From an uncultured Acidobacteriota bacterium (lineage in GTDB: Bacteria; Acidobacteriota; UBA6911; CAINFC01), in NCBI GenBank assembly GCA_903847975.1, contig CAINFC010000208.1:1-64000 (forward strand): a DNA stretch of 64,000 nt, written 5' to 3'. This document shows, piece after piece, positions 30,003-36,888 of this stretch. The position numbers were made by a program, and so were the translations under genes. The notes below the pieces were generated by a model. The model was not told the origin of the DNA. It did not search any database and saw nothing but the letters and a program-made list of their open reading frames with translations. How positions within the stretch are numbered: the first letter of the stretch is position 1; each line of letters starts with the position of its first letter.

Positions 30003-30695
30003 GTGGTCACCGTCCGCTTTGCCAGCGACCACTCCATCCGGGTGGCATTCGGCGAGGGAATTTCCCCCGACTGCCACCGGGAGGTGCGCCGCTTCTGGGC
30101 CCTGCTTTCCGCCGAAAATATAGGCGGGGTTCTTTCCCTGCACCCCGCCTACAACTCCCTTCTGGTCTCCTTCGATCCCCGTGTAACGCGCGGGCCGGAG
30201 CTTCTGGAAACGCTGCAGGCGCTGGTTCGCCTCCCGGACCGCTTTCCGCTGCCGGAGAGCCGGCTGGTGGAAATTCCAGTCTGCTACGGGAACCCGATGG
30301 GACCCGACCTGGAGCAGGTCGCCGAACTGGCAGGGTTGACGGCCGAAAAAGTGGTCGCGCTTCATTCCGGGGCTGAATACCTCGTCTACTTTCTCGGTTT
30401 CTCACCGGGATTCCCTTACCTGGGCGGGATGCCGGAGGAAATTTCCGCGCCTCGCCTGGCCGCCCCCCGGCGCCAGGTTCCTGCGGGAAGCGTGGCCATC
30501 GGCGGGAAACAGACCGGCATTTACCCGGTGTCGTCTCCCGGTGGATGGCAGCTGATCGGACGGACCCCGCGAACGCTTTTCTTTCCCGGGCAGCGCCCTC
30601 CCACGCTGCTGCAGATGGGCGACCGGGTCCGGTTCGTGCCGATTTCCCCCGGCGATTATGAGCGGTTGAAAAGCCGGGAGGAAGCAATTGGCTAG
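30003..30695 (+). CDS. pxpB: 5-oxoprolinase subunit PxpB
   Basis: A 230-residue protein of the KipI/PxpB family. It shows VTVRFASDHSIRVAFGEGIS, then IPVCYGNPMGPDLEQVAELAG, YLVYFLGFSPGFPYLGGM, PRRQVPAGSVAIGGKQTGIYP and the closing SPGGWQLIGRTP. The GFSPGFPYLGG and GIYP blocks are diagnostic. With PxpA and PxpC it opens 5-oxoproline (pyroglutamate) to glutamate using ATP. The GTG start lacks its own good ribosome-binding site and follows a stop codon by 3 nt. It overlaps pxpC by 8 nt. Confidence 0.93.
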   Translation: MVTVRFASDHSIRVAFGEGISPDCHREVRRFWALLSAENIGGVLSLHPAYNSLLVSFDPRVTRGPELLETLQALVRLPDRFPLPESRLVEIPVCYGNPMGPDLEQVAELAGLTAEKVVALHSGAEYLVYFLGFSPGFPYLGGMPEEISAPRLAAPRRQVPAGSVAIGGKQTGIYPVSSPGGWQLIGRTPRTLFFPGQRPPTLLQMGDRVRFVPISPGDYERLKSREEAIG

Positions 30696-31632
30696 GCTCC
30701 GGGTAGTCCGCCCCGGATTGCAGACCACGGTCCAGGACCTGGGCCGGTACGGCTTTGCCCACTTCGGCATCTCCGCCAGCGGCGCGGCGGACCCGGTCTC
30801 TTTCCGGCTGGGCAACCGGCTGGCAGGAAACCCGGAGGGATCGCCCGCCCTGGAAATGACACTGGTAGGGGGAGAATTCGAATTTGAGGAACCGGCCGTG
30901 GTGGCGGCGGCCGGCGCCGACTTTGCCGCCACCATGGACAGATCGCCTTTTCCGCCATGGACCTCCGTCCAGGTGGAAAAAGGTCAGACCCTCTGCTTTT
31001 CGGCATGCCGCCGGGGAGCCCGCGGCTACTTATGCATCCGCGGCGGCCTGCGGATTCCGCCGGTCCTGGGCAGCGCTTCCACCCACCTGTTTTCCGCCAT
31101 GGGAGGCTATCAGGGCCGCGCTCTGAAAAAAGGGGACCTGCTCGAATATGCACCCGTCCGGACCGGGGCGCCCCCGCAGCCGGCCCGCCCTCCGGAAAGC
31201 ATGATATTCGGAGGGAACCCGGTCCGGCTCCGGGTCACGGCAGGGCCGCAGCTGGATTTCTTTCCCCCGGAGGCCCGGGCGCTGTTCTCCGCTTCGCTCT
31301 ACCAGGTCAGTGAGGAGTTCAGCCGGATGGGACTGCGGCTCGGCGGCCCGGCTGTTACAGCCCGGGAGCGCTCCGAGATGGTAACCGAAGGAGTATCTCT
31401 GGGAGCCGTTCAGATTGCCGGGAATGGCCGGCCGATTCTACTCTTCGTGGAGCACCAGACCACCGGCGGATATCCCAAGATCGCCAACGTTATTTCCGCC
31501 GATCTGCACCGGATCGGCCAACTCCGACCCGGCGACCAGGTCCGGTTTGAATTCGCGACCCTGGAAGATGCCTGGTCTCTGCTGCAGGAGCAGGAAGCGC
31601 TGCTCCGGTCTCTTGGGCAGGAGGACGCATGA
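30688..31632 (+). CDS. pxpC: 5-oxoprolinase subunit PxpC
   Basis: A 314-residue protein of the KipA/PxpC biotin-dependent-carboxylase-like family. It starts LRVVRPGLQTTVQDLGRYG, has the family blocks HFGISASGAADPVSFRLGN and NPEGSPALEMTLVGGEFEF, and ends with GVSLGAVQIAGNGRPI and EHQTTGGYPKIANVISADL. The start is a TTG preceded by gggagg, 8 nt inside pxpB. Subunit of ATP-dependent 5-oxoprolinase. It overlaps the MFS gene by 4 nt. Confidence 0.93.
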   Translation: MARLRVVRPGLQTTVQDLGRYGFAHFGISASGAADPVSFRLGNRLAGNPEGSPALEMTLVGGEFEFEEPAVVAAAGADFAATMDRSPFPPWTSVQVEKGQTLCFSACRRGARGYLCIRGGLRIPPVLGSASTHLFSAMGGYQGRALKKGDLLEYAPVRTGAPPQPARPPESMIFGGNPVRLRVTAGPQLDFFPPEARALFSASLYQVSEEFSRMGLRLGGPAVTARERSEMVTEGVSLGAVQIAGNGRPILLFVEHQTTGGYPKIANVISADLHRIGQLRPGDQVRFEFATLEDAWSLLQEQEALLRSLGQEDA

Positions 31633-32870
31633 AATCCGACGAACTTCCCTGGTACCGCCAGGTCGGCCGGCCCCAGTGGCAGGCGCTCTTTGCCGCGCAG
31701 GTCGGCTGGATGCTCGACGCCATGGATGTTATGTTTTATGCCTTTGCACTGGGCGCCATCCAGGCGGAATTCCATCTCTCTTCGGCCCAGGCCGGCGGCC
31801 TGGCGGCGGTCACCCTGCTGACTTCCGCGCTGGGAGGAATCTGCTTCGGTTTTCTGGCCGACCGCCAGGGAAGAGCCAGGGCGCTGATGCTGTCCATCCT
31901 TCTTTACTCCGGATTCACGGCCCTGACCGCCAGCGCCCATTCCCTGGCCGCCCTCCTGCTGTGGCGCTCGATGGTGGGATTCGGCATGGGCGGAGAATGG
32001 TCCGCCGGCTCGGTGCTGGTCTCGGAAACCTGGCCGGCGGAGCACCGCGGAAAGGCCGTCGGCATCATGCAGTCGGGCTGGGCCATCGGCTACATCCTGG
32101 CCGCCCTCCTGGCGGCTTTGATATTGCCCGTCTACGGGTGGCGGGTGCTGTTTCTGGTGGGCATTCTGCCGGCCTTCTTCACCCTTTGGATCCGGCGGAA
32201 CGTCGCCGAGCCCGCCCTTTGGGCGGCCAGCCGGGACCGGCGTCATGGCAGCGCTTTCGATTCTCTTTTCTCCTGCCTGCGAAAGCCTCACCGCAAAACC
32301 GTTCTGACCGCTTCGCTGCTCACCACCAGCGTGCTTTTCGCCTATTGGGGCCTCTTTACCTGGCTGCCCTCCTTTCTGGCCCGGCCGCTGGAGCAGGGCG
32401 GCGCCGGACTGGGCATCCTGAAAAGCTCCACCTGGATTGTCCCGATGCAGATCGGCGCCTTTTTCGGCTACTTCTGCTTCGGCTTCCTGGCGGACCGCTT
32501 CGGGAGAAGGCCGGTCTTCCAGCTTTTCCTGCTGGGCGCCGCCCTGGTTGTGCCGGTCTACGGGCAGATCGCCCGGTACGAGCTGTGGCTTCTGCTGCTC
32601 GGCCCGCTGGTCGGGTTCCTGGGACACGGCTATTTCAGCGTCTTCGGAGCCCTGCTGGCCGAGCTGTTTCCGACCGCCATCCGCGGCACGGCCCAGGGGC
32701 TGGTTTACAATGTCGGCCGGGCTTTCAGCGCCCTGGCCCCTTACACCGTCGGAGCCCTGGCAGACCTGTTCGGACTGGGCAGCGCCCTGGCCGTCACCGC
32801 CGGCTTTTTCCTTTCGGGAGCCCTGCTGATGTTCCTGCTGCCGGAAACCAGGGGCGCGCGGCTGACCTGA
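31629..32870 (+). CDS. MFS transporter in the 5-oxoprolinase operon
   Basis: A 413-residue transporter with 12 predicted membrane helices. MFS motifs appear as FLADRQGRARALMLS (loop 2-3) and FGFLADRFGRRPVF (loop 8-9), with WRSMVGFGMGGEWSAGSVLV as in the aromatic-acid/metabolite:H+ symporter subfamily. It lies between pxpC and pxpA with a 4-nt ATGA overlap to pxpC, so uptake of 5-oxoproline or a related pyroglutamyl compound is the natural guess; that is inferred from position only. Confidence 0.9.
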   Translation: MKSDELPWYRQVGRPQWQALFAAQVGWMLDAMDVMFYAFALGAIQAEFHLSSAQAGGLAAVTLLTSALGGICFGFLADRQGRARALMLSILLYSGFTALTASAHSLAALLLWRSMVGFGMGGEWSAGSVLVSETWPAEHRGKAVGIMQSGWAIGYILAALLAALILPVYGWRVLFLVGILPAFFTLWIRRNVAEPALWAASRDRRHGSAFDSLFSCLRKPHRKTVLTASLLTTSVLFAYWGLFTWLPSFLARPLEQGGAGLGILKSSTWIVPMQIGAFFGYFCFGFLADRFGRRPVFQLFLLGAALVVPVYGQIARYELWLLLLGPLVGFLGHGYFSVFGALLAELFPTAIRGTAQGLVYNVGRAFSALAPYTVGALADLFGLGSALAVTAGFFLSGALLMFLLPETRGARLT

Positions 32871-32881
32871 GGAAAGAGACG

Positions 32882-33631
32882 ATGGACATTAATTGCGACA
32901 TGGGCGAAGTCCCGGAAGCGCTCGCCGACGGATCCGCGGAACGGTTGATGCGCTGGATCTCCTCGGCCAGTATCGCCTGCGGCGCTCATGCCGGGGACAG
33001 GGAATGCATGCTCCGCACCATGGAGCTCTGCGGGCAGTACGGAGTGTCGATCGGCGCCCACCCGGGATACCCGGACCGGCTTTCCATGGGGCGCAGGGAG
33101 ATACTCCTGCCTCCCGCGGAAATCACGGAAACGGTCTACCGGCAGGTTGCCACCCTGCTCGAGCTGGCGGAAAAAGACGGGCGAAGCGTCGGCCATGTCA
33201 AGCCGCACGGAGCTCTTTATAACCGTGCTGCCGTGGATGAATCAGCCGCCGCGGCCATCGCCGAAGGAATCCGCAGGACCGGCCGGGATTTTTGGCTGGT
33301 CGGTCTGGCCGGTTCGCGCATGCTCGAGGTCTGGAAAACCGGCGGATGGCGAACCGCCGCCGAAGCCTTTGCCGATCGGCGGTATGAGGCCAACGGCACG
33401 CTCCGCTCCCGGCAATTCAACGATGCCCTGATCCTGGATCCCCTGGAAGCCGCCCGGCAGGCGCTGTCGGTCGCCTGCCGGCACAAAGTGACCGCCTCGA
33501 GCGGGGTAGAGGTTCCGGTGGATGCCCGGACCCTCTGCATACACGGCGACACGCCCCATGCCGATGCCGTGGCGCGGGCCGTGCGCGAGGCGCTGGAAGA
33601 GGCCGGGCAGCGCGTGGGCCCGCTGCATTAG
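32882..33631 (+). CDS. pxpA: 5-oxoprolinase subunit PxpA (LamB/YcsF family)
   Basis: A 249-residue protein. It starts MDINCDMGEVPEALADG, with CGAHAGDRECM, SIGAHPGYPDRLSMGRRE, VGHVKPHGALYN, and ends LCIHGDTPHADAVARAV, all signature blocks of the LamB/YcsF family. The frame is open far upstream across the MFS gene, but only the part from 32882 is family-like; that ATG follows ggaaagag, 11 nt after the MFS stop. Forms the 5-oxoprolinase complex with PxpB and PxpC. Confidence 0.93.
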   Translation: MDINCDMGEVPEALADGSAERLMRWISSASIACGAHAGDRECMLRTMELCGQYGVSIGAHPGYPDRLSMGRREILLPPAEITETVYRQVATLLELAEKDGRSVGHVKPHGALYNRAAVDESAAAAIAEGIRRTGRDFWLVGLAGSRMLEVWKTGGWRTAAEAFADRRYEANGTLRSRQFNDALILDPLEAARQALSVACRHKVTASSGVEVPVDARTLCIHGDTPHADAVARAVREALEEAGQRVGPLH

Positions 33632-33672: not shown

Positions 33673-33909
33673 TTATCCTCCCGCTTTAGCGATCAGAGCG
33701 CGGATTTCCCCTTCACGGGGAAAGCGGTCGCCGCCGATGGTGTACTTGGAGTAGATCAGCTTTCCGTCCCGCTTTACATCGAAAATGCCTCCGCTTCCCC
33801 GAATCAGCTGCACCTGGGCATCGGGAAAGCCTGCCTTGATTTCCGCTTCCACCCGGGAAGCGTGAGGGAGGTAGTTTCAAACGCCGCAGTATTCGATAGT
33901 AATTTTCAT
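33673..33909 (-). CDS. SelW/Rdx-family selenoprotein with in-frame UGA (Sec)
   Basis: A 78-residue protein if UGA at 33877-33879 (codon 11) is read as selenocysteine. It opens MKITIEYCGVUNYLPHA, with the CxxU redox motif at 8-11, and continues in the same frame with FPDAQVQLIRGSGGIFDVK, KLIYSK and RFPREGEI before TAA at 33673. This is the thioredoxin-fold SelW/SelT/SelH (Rdx) pattern, where cysteine versions have CxxC. The ATG follows ggagacaaaca. A 7-bp hairpin just after the UGA fits a bacterial SECIS element. Expression needs SelA/B/C/D elsewhere in the genome. It is a single gene between pxpA and a secreted-protein gene. If the genome lacks Sec machinery it would be a pseudogene. Confidence 0.88.
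33844..33862 (-). promoter_or_regulatory. Candidate bacterial SECIS element
   Basis: On the minus strand CGCTTCC-CGGGT-GGAAGCG forms a perfect 7-bp stem with a 5-nt loop. The loop begins 21 nt after the UGA and has G at its second position, both within the reported limits for bacterial SECIS hairpins (16-37 nt; G among the first two loop positions). Confidence 0.75.
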
Positions 33910-33935
33910 TGTTTGTCTCCGTTCACAGCATATAT

Positions 33936-35783
33936 TCAGGAACCCGATGCCTGCCCGAGCCGCTCTTCCAGCTGACGGGGCAGGTTCTCCAGGCCCCTGG
34001 GGGTCAAATCCAGTATATCCTGCATGATTTCTTCCAGGGTATAGGCCACGAACCACCGCAAGCCCGGATCCGAAACTTTCGCGGCCCGCAGCAGGCTCAG
34101 GGCCAGCTGCATCTGCGCCGGCTTGTTCAGGTAGGGGCTATGGGCGCGAAGCGCCTGGCACAGGGGAATCAGCGTTTCACCCCAGGTTGCCTGCCTGTCG
34201 AGCAGGTCGAGCAGCAGGTCCAGGTGGCGCAGCCGCACCATCTGGTTCTGGTCGGCCAGTCCGGTTCCCAAGGACAGAATCTGGTAGTGGGCCAGTCCGG
34301 AAATCCAGGGCTTCTGCGGCTCCCGCGGACCCGGCATCGCCAGGCCGGCGCGGGCGTTGGCCTGCAGGAGGAGCAGTCCTTTGGAAGATCCTCCCCCCAG
34401 AAGAGCCTGGGCGGCGCGCTCCTTCTGCCCGTCGGTTCCACGGGAAAGAAGCTCCGACCACATCAGGTCCAGCTCCGGGCCGGCCGGAGCGTACATCAGC
34501 AGCTTGTTGAGTTCCTGCTCCGCGTCCGCCTTGGCGAACTCGTTCAGGAAAACGACGGCGGCTTCGGCTCGGGCGCTGGTGCGGTACACGGCCTGCGCCG
34601 CCAGCAGACGGGTGTCCGGGTTGGCATCGTGCAGGTACCGGCGGAAGACCGTCAGGCGCATGTTTTCCGCCGCCCCGCTTTTTTCGATCAGGTCCATCAG
34701 GCCGTACGGGTTGTTGTAGTCGTCGGCGCGCTCCATGATCTGCTTGAGCCCTTCCTCGGTGGCCACTTTCTGCATGGCGCAGGTAACCTGGCGCATCCAG
34801 GGTGCCTGGTCCAGAACCAGGTTGACCACCTCCTCGGGCCGGCCGCCCGTCTGGTTCAGCAGCAGGGCGCAGGGGTCACCGGGGGCAACCGGGAGCCAGC
34901 TGGAAACCGATTCTTTTTCCGGGTCCGCCGCGGACTTGATTCCGGTGGCGCGGGGACTGGCCGGATCGTCGTACGGCATGCAGTGCCAGCCGTAAGCCCA
35001 GGCAAAGCCCTTCTGGTTCTGTTCCTTGGCAAGATAAGCGCCGGCGTCGAAGCTGACGTTTTCCAGCCTGGCTTTGACAAGGGCCGCCCGCCAGGCGGCC
35101 AGGCGCTCCACCATCTCTTTGTCGTAATCTCCGGCGCTCTTGGGCCGGGCGGCGATCAGCGGCTTGATTACCGCCTGCACCGCTTCCCACTGATCCGCCG
35201 GCAGATCGCCTCCGGAGTAGGCCTGTCGGAACTGGCGCATAAAATCATAGAGCGCCCTGGCGGTTTCGATGGTTTTGGTCCGGTTGTTTTCGTTCAGGTA
35301 AATCCGGTCCGGGTCGTGCCCGTCCAGCATGTGGCCGATCGCCATGCCGTAGCCTTCGTGCGCCCAGGTGTCGGCCAGCACGTGCATTTCCATCCCCAGG
35401 CGATACAGGCTGTTGGCCCGGATGGTCTTGTCGGCCGATCCGGCGTCGGCAATGGCCCGCAGCATATTGAATCGCCCGAAGAAATTGTTCCGCTTGGCCT
35501 GATGGCCGATATCCACCGCATCCATGACCCAGTTGACCGGATACCACTTCGGAAAGTGGTACATGCGCCGCGTGGAGGGCCGGACGTAAACCGGCTCGGT
35601 GTTTTCGTTCCAGTCGGTGTACTCCGCCGTCTGGGCCACCAGCAGCGCTTCATCGGCGTTGAAGCCGGACATGCGCGCCAGGTAGTAGGTCAGGTAGAAA
35701 TGAATATCGGTATCGTAGGCCGGCGCCGGCGCCACTGAAGCGAGTAACAGGCCCACCACCAGAAAAAAGAATTTGGTCTTCAT
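33936..35783 (-). CDS. Secreted zinc-phospholipase-C-like protein (DUF6765-type)
   Basis: A 615-residue protein with a signal peptide (FFFLVVGLLLASVAPAPA). The N-terminal half begins YDTDIHFYLTYYLARMSGF, has AQTAEYTDWNENTEP and the metal-site segment MEMHVLADTWAHEGYGMAIGH, the pattern of all-alpha zinc-dependent phospholipase C/P1-nuclease relatives of the DUF6765 kind. The C-terminal 250 residues look like helical HEAT-type repeats (RRYLHDANPDTRLLAAQAV). No enzymatic role is proved. ATG at 35783 starts the signal peptide. It is followed on the same strand by the selenoprotein gene. Confidence 0.7.
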   Translation of the reverse strand: MKTKFFFLVVGLLLASVAPAPAYDTDIHFYLTYYLARMSGFNADEALLVAQTAEYTDWNENTEPVYVRPSTRRMYHFPKWYPVNWVMDAVDIGHQAKRNNFFGRFNMLRAIADAGSADKTIRANSLYRLGMEMHVLADTWAHEGYGMAIGHMLDGHDPDRIYLNENNRTKTIETARALYDFMRQFRQAYSGGDLPADQWEAVQAVIKPLIAARPKSAGDYDKEMVERLAAWRAALVKARLENVSFDAGAYLAKEQNQKGFAWAYGWHCMPYDDPASPRATGIKSAADPEKESVSSWLPVAPGDPCALLLNQTGGRPEEVVNLVLDQAPWMRQVTCAMQKVATEEGLKQIMERADDYNNPYGLMDLIEKSGAAENMRLTVFRRYLHDANPDTRLLAAQAVYRTSARAEAAVVFLNEFAKADAEQELNKLLMYAPAGPELDLMWSELLSRGTDGQKERAAQALLGGGSSKGLLLLQANARAGLAMPGPREPQKPWISGLAHYQILSLGTGLADQNQMVRLRHLDLLLDLLDRQATWGETLIPLCQALRAHSPYLNKPAQMQLALSLLRAAKVSDPGLRWFVAYTLEEIMQDILDLTPRGLENLPRQLEERLGQASGS

Positions 35784-35802
35784 AATAGCCTCCTGCCCGG
35801 GA

Positions 35803-36888
35803 TTAATAGGAATAGGTGTGAAGAATCTGTTTGATCGCCGGTTTGGCGCTGTCGTAGAACAGCTGGTGCTGGCCGAAATCGTCGGTGGTAAAATGCATCC
35901 GGTAGCTTTGCCCGGCCTCGTCCACAAAGGTCACACTATGGCTCTGGCTCTGCTGCCGGCCCACGTACCACACCTGGATGGAGTAGGGCGTATTCCAGAT
36001 CCCGTCCCGGTTCACCGACACTTCCAGACAGCCGCTCGGACAGGGGCTGCCGGTACTGATAACCGACTGCCCCAGCACCTTGGTGAAGGTCCCTTTGCCG
36101 CAGCCCTGCAGCAGGTAGCGGGTGGTCCCGTCCTGGCTGACCGGGATGGATCGTTCCAGGGCCACATCGCACTGCTGGGTCGCGGAGGGCAGCTCCACCG
36201 CCGACTCCTTCATACCGACGAAAACCGGATGAGGCACGCCTCCGAGGGTCAGCTGGACATGCGCCGGCTCCTTGGTTTTCACCAGGTCAAACCGCTCGTC
36301 CTCCATACCGGTCCGCGAAAAGACCAGATCCTGAAATCCTTCCTGCACGCCGTCCAGCTGGAATTTTCCCTCGGCATCGGTGATGGCCACCGGAAGCTTG
36401 GCGTAGCGCGCCATCCCCTGGTTCGCCCGCAGGGTAACCGTCACCCGGGCGGCCGGCACGAGGCCCCAGAGGGTTTCCCGCCGGACCTCCCCGGTGATCG
36501 TCCCGGCGGCCACCTGCTTGGACAGGGAGGCATTCAGGGTCTGGCTGCCGCGGCTGAGCAGGGTCAGGGGCCCGTAATAGAGCGTGTTGTACCCGCTGAT
36601 AAAAAAACCGAGATCGAAGCTTTCGCAAGGCACGGAAAGCTTGTAGCTGCCGTTCGAATCGGAGCGGCTTTCATAACGGCCGTGATCCGCGCGGCTCATA
36701 GCCACAACCTGCACTCCCGCCAGGCCGGCCGGGCCCGAGGCCGTCACCTTGCCGGCAATGCTGCAGGCCCTCGGCATGGCTTCCGCAGGCGGGGGGTCCG
36801 AGGCGGGCTGCGCCTGCAATCCGGCGGAAAGAAAGAATCCAATTGCGCCGAGAAGCGGCACGATCCCTGTCCGAAAACAACCTTTCAT
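35803..36888 (-). CDS. Secreted protein with carboxypeptidase-regulatory-like beta-sandwich domains
   Basis: A 361-residue protein with a signal peptide (LLGAIGFFLSAGLQAQ). Two CarboxypepD-regulatory-like repeats are visible: CSIAGKVTASGPAGLAGVQV through SNGSYKLSVPCESF, and GTITGEVRRETLWGLVPAARVTV through AEGKFQLDGVQEGF. The last 150 residues are not recognised. Such repeats are common in Acidobacteriota secreted proteins. ATG follows ggaggtgcacc. It precedes the phospholipase-C-like gene by 19 nt, so the pair may be cotranscribed. Confidence 0.75.
   Translation of the reverse strand: MKGCFRTGIVPLLGAIGFFLSAGLQAQPASDPPPAEAMPRACSIAGKVTASGPAGLAGVQVVAMSRADHGRYESRSDSNGSYKLSVPCESFDLGFFISGYNTLYYGPLTLLSRGSQTLNASLSKQVAAGTITGEVRRETLWGLVPAARVTVTLRANQGMARYAKLPVAITDAEGKFQLDGVQEGFQDLVFSRTGMEDERFDLVKTKEPAHVQLTLGGVPHPVFVGMKESAVELPSATQQCDVALERSIPVSQDGTTRYLLQGCGKGTFTKVLGQSVISTGSPCPSGCLEVSVNRDGIWNTPYSIQVWYVGRQQSQSHSVTFVDEAGQSYRMHFTTDDFGQHQLFYDSAKPAIKQILHTYSY

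Follow-up and report, generated by a model that had tools for sequence, protein, structure and literature searches.

A SelW-like gene with an in-frame UGA in an acidobacterial genome, probably encoding a selenoprotein

The locus described here raises a question about a single codon. A short minus-strand reading frame is interrupted at codon 11 by a UGA, which may end translation, may be a damaged or misread cysteine codon, or may be decoded as selenocysteine (Sec). The features of the window, by which is meant the whole stretch of 64,000 nucleotides that was analysed, are collected in Table 1.

Table 1. Features of the selW-like locus and its surroundings in the window.
Feature	Position	Strand	Remarks
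SelW-like (Rdx family) selenoprotein gene	33673..33909	minus	78 codons including Sec; stop TAA (33675-33673)
Sec-UGA	33877..33879	minus	codon 11; second position of CxxC (CGVU)
bSECIS hairpin core	33844..33862	minus	7-bp stem, 5-nt loop CGGGU, G at loop position 2
Probable ribosome-binding site	33915..33920	minus	GGAG within GGAGAC, ~8 nt 5′ of the selW-like ATG; inferred from sequence
DUF6765 gene	33936..35927	minus	co-directional, upstream of selW-like gene; Pfam PF20551, E 8e-23; stop TGA at 33938-33936
CT_C_D	30003-30695	plus	probable 5-oxoprolinase (Pxp) cluster, 30003-33631
CT_A_B	30688-31632	plus	probable Pxp cluster
MFS transporter	31629-32870	plus	probable Pxp cluster
LamB/YcsF	about 32876-33631	plus	probable Pxp cluster

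When TGA is read as U, the frame translates to MKITIEYCGVUNYLPHASRVEAEIKAGFPDAQVQLIRGSGGIFDVKRDGKLIYSKYTIGGDRFPREGEIRALIAKAGG, and the UGA is its only interruption. In a profile search, residues 2–74 of this protein match positions 1–73 of the 74 in the Pfam Rdx model (PF10262; E 6e-18, 65.2 bits against a cut-off of 22.6), which amounts to a full-length Rdx/SelW domain. The protein also scores above the cut-offs of NCBIfam NF041051 (SelTWH; 91.2 versus 88) and of TIGR02174 (SelT/SelW/SelH; 49.9 versus 34.2). The initial annotation had proposed a frame that stays open past the UGA with SelW/Rdx-like sequence, and the translation and the Pfam and NCBIfam matches bear this out.

The UGA occupies the same place in nearly all relatives. 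One genome per species was scanned with a query in which Cys replaced the UGA-encoded residue, and codon 11 was part of none of the query patterns, which yielded 57 relatives. Because the query held Cys, relatives carrying UGA were not selected for it. TGA is found at exactly codon 11 in 56 of these relatives, which are spread over many phyla, and TGC is found in the remaining one, a Thermodesulfovibrio metagenome-assembled genome (MAG; L071). This means that every relative has either Sec or Cys at position 11 of the family alignment, as expected if the UGA takes the place of the second cysteine of the CxxC motif, the usual Sec position. When 59 genomes belonging to the host's class and phylum were scanned, 15 further genomes gave matches, at 16 places in all, with one in-frame TGA at 15 of the places and a Cys form at the other (L086). 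A second, divergent SelW-like frame with an in-frame TGA (YCDTU) and an altered downstream motif occurs in one genome of the same phylum (L090, G068:C1:149588-149755), which also carries an ordinary SelW-like copy.

In every bacterial selenoprotein gene some ribosomes can be expected to terminate at the UGA, which never wholly loses its function as a stop. It could thus be argued that the product is a 10-residue peptide ending at the UGA, and that the remainder is left untranslated or depends on re-initiation. However, no part of the family is more conserved than the first ten residues, which include the redox Cys, and conservation runs across the UGA, so that we regard a terminated peptide as extremely unlikely.

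The sequence directly after the UGA forms a hairpin, CGCUUCC-CGGGU-GGAAGCG, which begins 14 nt past the UGA and has its loop at 21 nt. The bacterial Sec insertion sequence (bSECIS) model quoted in PMC13188914 has a loop of 3–9 nt, an upper stem of 4–16 bp, a G as first or second loop nucleotide, a spacing of 16–37 nt and a minimum free energy of −7.5 kcal/mol or lower. The element in the window lies within all of these bounds: its stem has 7 bp, its 5-nt loop carries G at position 2, the spacing is 21 nt and the energy is −11.8 kcal/mol. This energy was obtained for the 25-nt hairpin element alone (z −2.5, with 5 of 200 shuffles as good), while the folding energy of the 56-nt context is no better than that of shuffled sequences (z 0.32). 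Because the context energy is unremarkable, the single-sequence fold is by itself weak evidence. A comparable hairpin, with at least 7 perfect pairs and a G in loop positions 1–2, follows at a suitable distance only 7 (0.5%) of the 1420 TGA triplets present in the window on both strands and in all frames. An Rfam scan of the hairpin region returned no family matching the hairpin.

Conservation of the hairpin across relatives is more telling. In an ungapped, codon-anchored alignment of 57 genes, the 7 hairpin pairs are formed in 83.6% of alignment cells, compared to 29.6–53.0% when the pairing is slid by 1–3 columns. The stem contains 69 double-changed cells compared to 26.5 ± 4.0 after shuffling, and the covariation score is 0.388 compared to 0.123 ± 0.016, with compensatory changes at 5 of the 7 pairs. 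An independent RNAalifold prediction also recovers the inner part of the conserved stem. Constraint on the RNA was separated from constraint on the protein by resampling synonymous codons 200 times in 63 UGA-bearing genes, a set that leaves out some same-phylum loci, since one strand only was scanned. The real genes have a mean of 5.83 of 7 pairs versus 4.31 ± 0.13 and a mean energy of −10.15 versus −6.68 ± 0.30 kcal/mol, both beyond all 200 resamples. Covariation and the synonymous-codon null thus both indicate that the hairpin is conserved among homologues beyond coding needs. The hairpin described in the initial annotation, with its stem, loop and distance from the UGA, is present in the sequence as stated, and folding and comparison show it to be real, conserved and within the bSECIS model.

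All 57 genes have the loop G, which falls in alignment column 26. Residue 19 (33853-33855, minus strand; alignment columns 25–27) is R, S or G, and the second base of every codon at this position is G. The RNA signal, in the form of the SECIS loop G, therefore restricts the choice of amino acid at residue 19.

The same comparisons bear on the possibility that the gene is a pseudogene or contains a sequencing error, in which a Cys codon was mutated or misread to TGA. A single base change turns TGC into TGA, and the sequence comes from a single-genome draft of 326 contigs. However, it is difficult to reconcile such an accident with the same TGA in 56 of 57 relatives, with a remaining frame that is intact and 39–68% identical to those relatives, or with a hairpin after the TGA that is under selection beyond the protein, as judged by covariation and the synonymous-codon null. 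We consider this explanation highly improbable. The decisive support for the selenoprotein reading is comparative, and consists of the UGA shared by relatives together with the compensatory changes in the stem.

Decoding of UGA as Sec requires a dedicated set of genes, the absence of which would have contradicted the initial annotation; the host genome (G000; 8.13 Mb, 99% complete, 1.8% contamination) contains the whole set. A single strong match was found for selA (544 bits), and selB (343.7 bits) and selD (357.7 bits) are likewise present in one copy each, all three scoring above curated cut-offs. The selB product has the SelB-specific beta-barrel and winged-helix domains, and that of selD has AIRS domains. 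The tRNA-Sec, encoded by selC, scores 77.1 bits and has the anticodon TCA according to ARAGORN, that is, UCA. A second above-threshold match to RF01852 in this genome is a tRNA-Ser. When 31 genomes, with the host as one of them, were tested, 27 gave a SelB match above cut-off. Within the phylum, selA is present in 49 of 60 relatives, so its co-occurrence with the gene is by itself uninformative. No selA was found in G044, a fragmented, 91%-complete MAG of the same class that has a UGA-containing SelW. A search of the host genome for formate dehydrogenase alpha, a usual co-selenoprotein, gave none above cut-off and no in-frame stop.

The UGA might also be read as Trp or Cys through reassignment of the code, or be passed by unspecific read-through. 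No specific point speaks for this, and several speak against it. The DUF6765 gene directly upstream ends in TGA, and therefore TGA is an ordinary stop here and the code is not reassigned as a whole. Moreover, the UGA aligns with Cys, in the Thermodesulfovibrio relative and in one member of the phylum, and not with Trp, and the genome encodes tRNA-Sec, SelA, SelB and SelD. Reassignment or read-through is thus highly unlikely. A gap of 26 nt separates the DUF6765 gene, whose protein has an apparent signal peptide, from the selW-like ATG, and it is possible that the two genes share one transcript. On the other side, the probable Pxp cluster is convergent with the selW-like gene and ends 41 nt from its stop. 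DUF6765 and LamB/YcsF were sought beside selW in relatives, and neither was found in flanks of at most 1.5 kb.

Taken together, the open frame, the family membership, the complete set of Sec genes and the conservation of both UGA and hairpin make it almost certain, as far as sequence can tell, that this gene is functional and encodes a bacterial SelW-like selenoprotein. All checks suggested in the initial annotation gave results in its favour. The gene is presumably expressed. In E. coli, SelB with GTP and Sec-tRNA binds the hairpin and UGA is decoded as Sec (summarised in PMC1794560), and because this biology is established, we infer Sec insertion at codon 11 here. The ribosome would arrive at the UGA in codon 11 of the selW-like mRNA, and SelB carrying GTP and Sec-tRNA-Sec (anticodon UCA) would dock on the hairpin directly downstream. 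Sec would then be inserted, and the product, a small protein with a thioredoxin-like Rdx fold, would carry the redox motif C-G-V-U. Judging from the CxxU motif, the protein is most likely a selenol-thiol oxidoreductase involved in peroxide or thiol-redox handling.

The host and the gene appear to have different affinities. In an rpoB tree, the host groups with a Thermoanaerobaculales record (L046; Acidobacteriota) with support of 99/98, which places it in the Acidobacteriota on the basis of this gene. Four rows of that tree that are probably in the wrong frame (G081, G069, L069 and L064) were disregarded, and the grouping lies between other rows. No close sister of the host is present in the set searched. 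In a SelW protein tree of 75 columns, the protein groups not with acidobacterial members but with those of a Desulfamplus MAG (L017) and a Deltaproteobacteria MAG (L018), with support of 98/83. The nearest proteins are ~65–68% identical and come from deltaproteobacterial or myxococcotal records. The CGGGU loop is common to the window hairpin and L018, and that of L017 is CGUGU. This grouping is a hint of horizontal transfer, and only a hint because the tree has 75 columns and includes MAG-derived sequences; alternatively, L017 or L018 may be mis-binned. We put forward tentatively, and with more doubt than belief, that selW and its SECIS were acquired together from a deltaproteobacterial or myxococcotal lineage, and that the recipient SelB reads a CGGGU-loop variant unlike the (A/G)GU loops that most of the family has. 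If this is true, bSECIS elements can move between phyla as working cassettes.

SelW-like selenoproteins of bacteria were described by Zhang and Gladyshev in 2005 (PMC1088965) and 2006 (PMC1794560), and the novelty and surprise of the present gene are therefore low. It is biologically ordinary and adds an acidobacterial member to the family. It also illustrates clearly how standard gene callers truncate or miss such a gene at the UGA, and the alignment makes visible the constraint that a SECIS places on a protein. Like the described proteins, it is a small Rdx-family protein with an N-terminal CxxU and a UGA followed by a bSECIS with a loop G. Cys homologues are very few or absent in Sec-using organisms (PMC1794560), and Cys forms are likewise rare among the relatives found here. 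The function of SelW-like proteins has been stated as unclear (PMC1088965). The present gene differs from those described in its loop, CGGGU compared to their common (A/G)GU(C/U)U, and in its acidobacterial host. NF041051, which the protein matches above cut-off, is named as a SelT/SelW/SelH family (seleno)protein; its short name points to Campylobacterota, whereas the present member is from Acidobacteriota. Finally, eight Rdx-family sequences of known structure, one of them Selenoprotein W, are matched by the family profile. The matches to 2FA8, 2OKA, 2OBK, 2P0G and Selenoprotein W (2NPB) extend over nearly the whole length (E 9e-17 to 9e-7), although in the alignment 2FA8, the best bacterial chain, has Cys in place of Sec.
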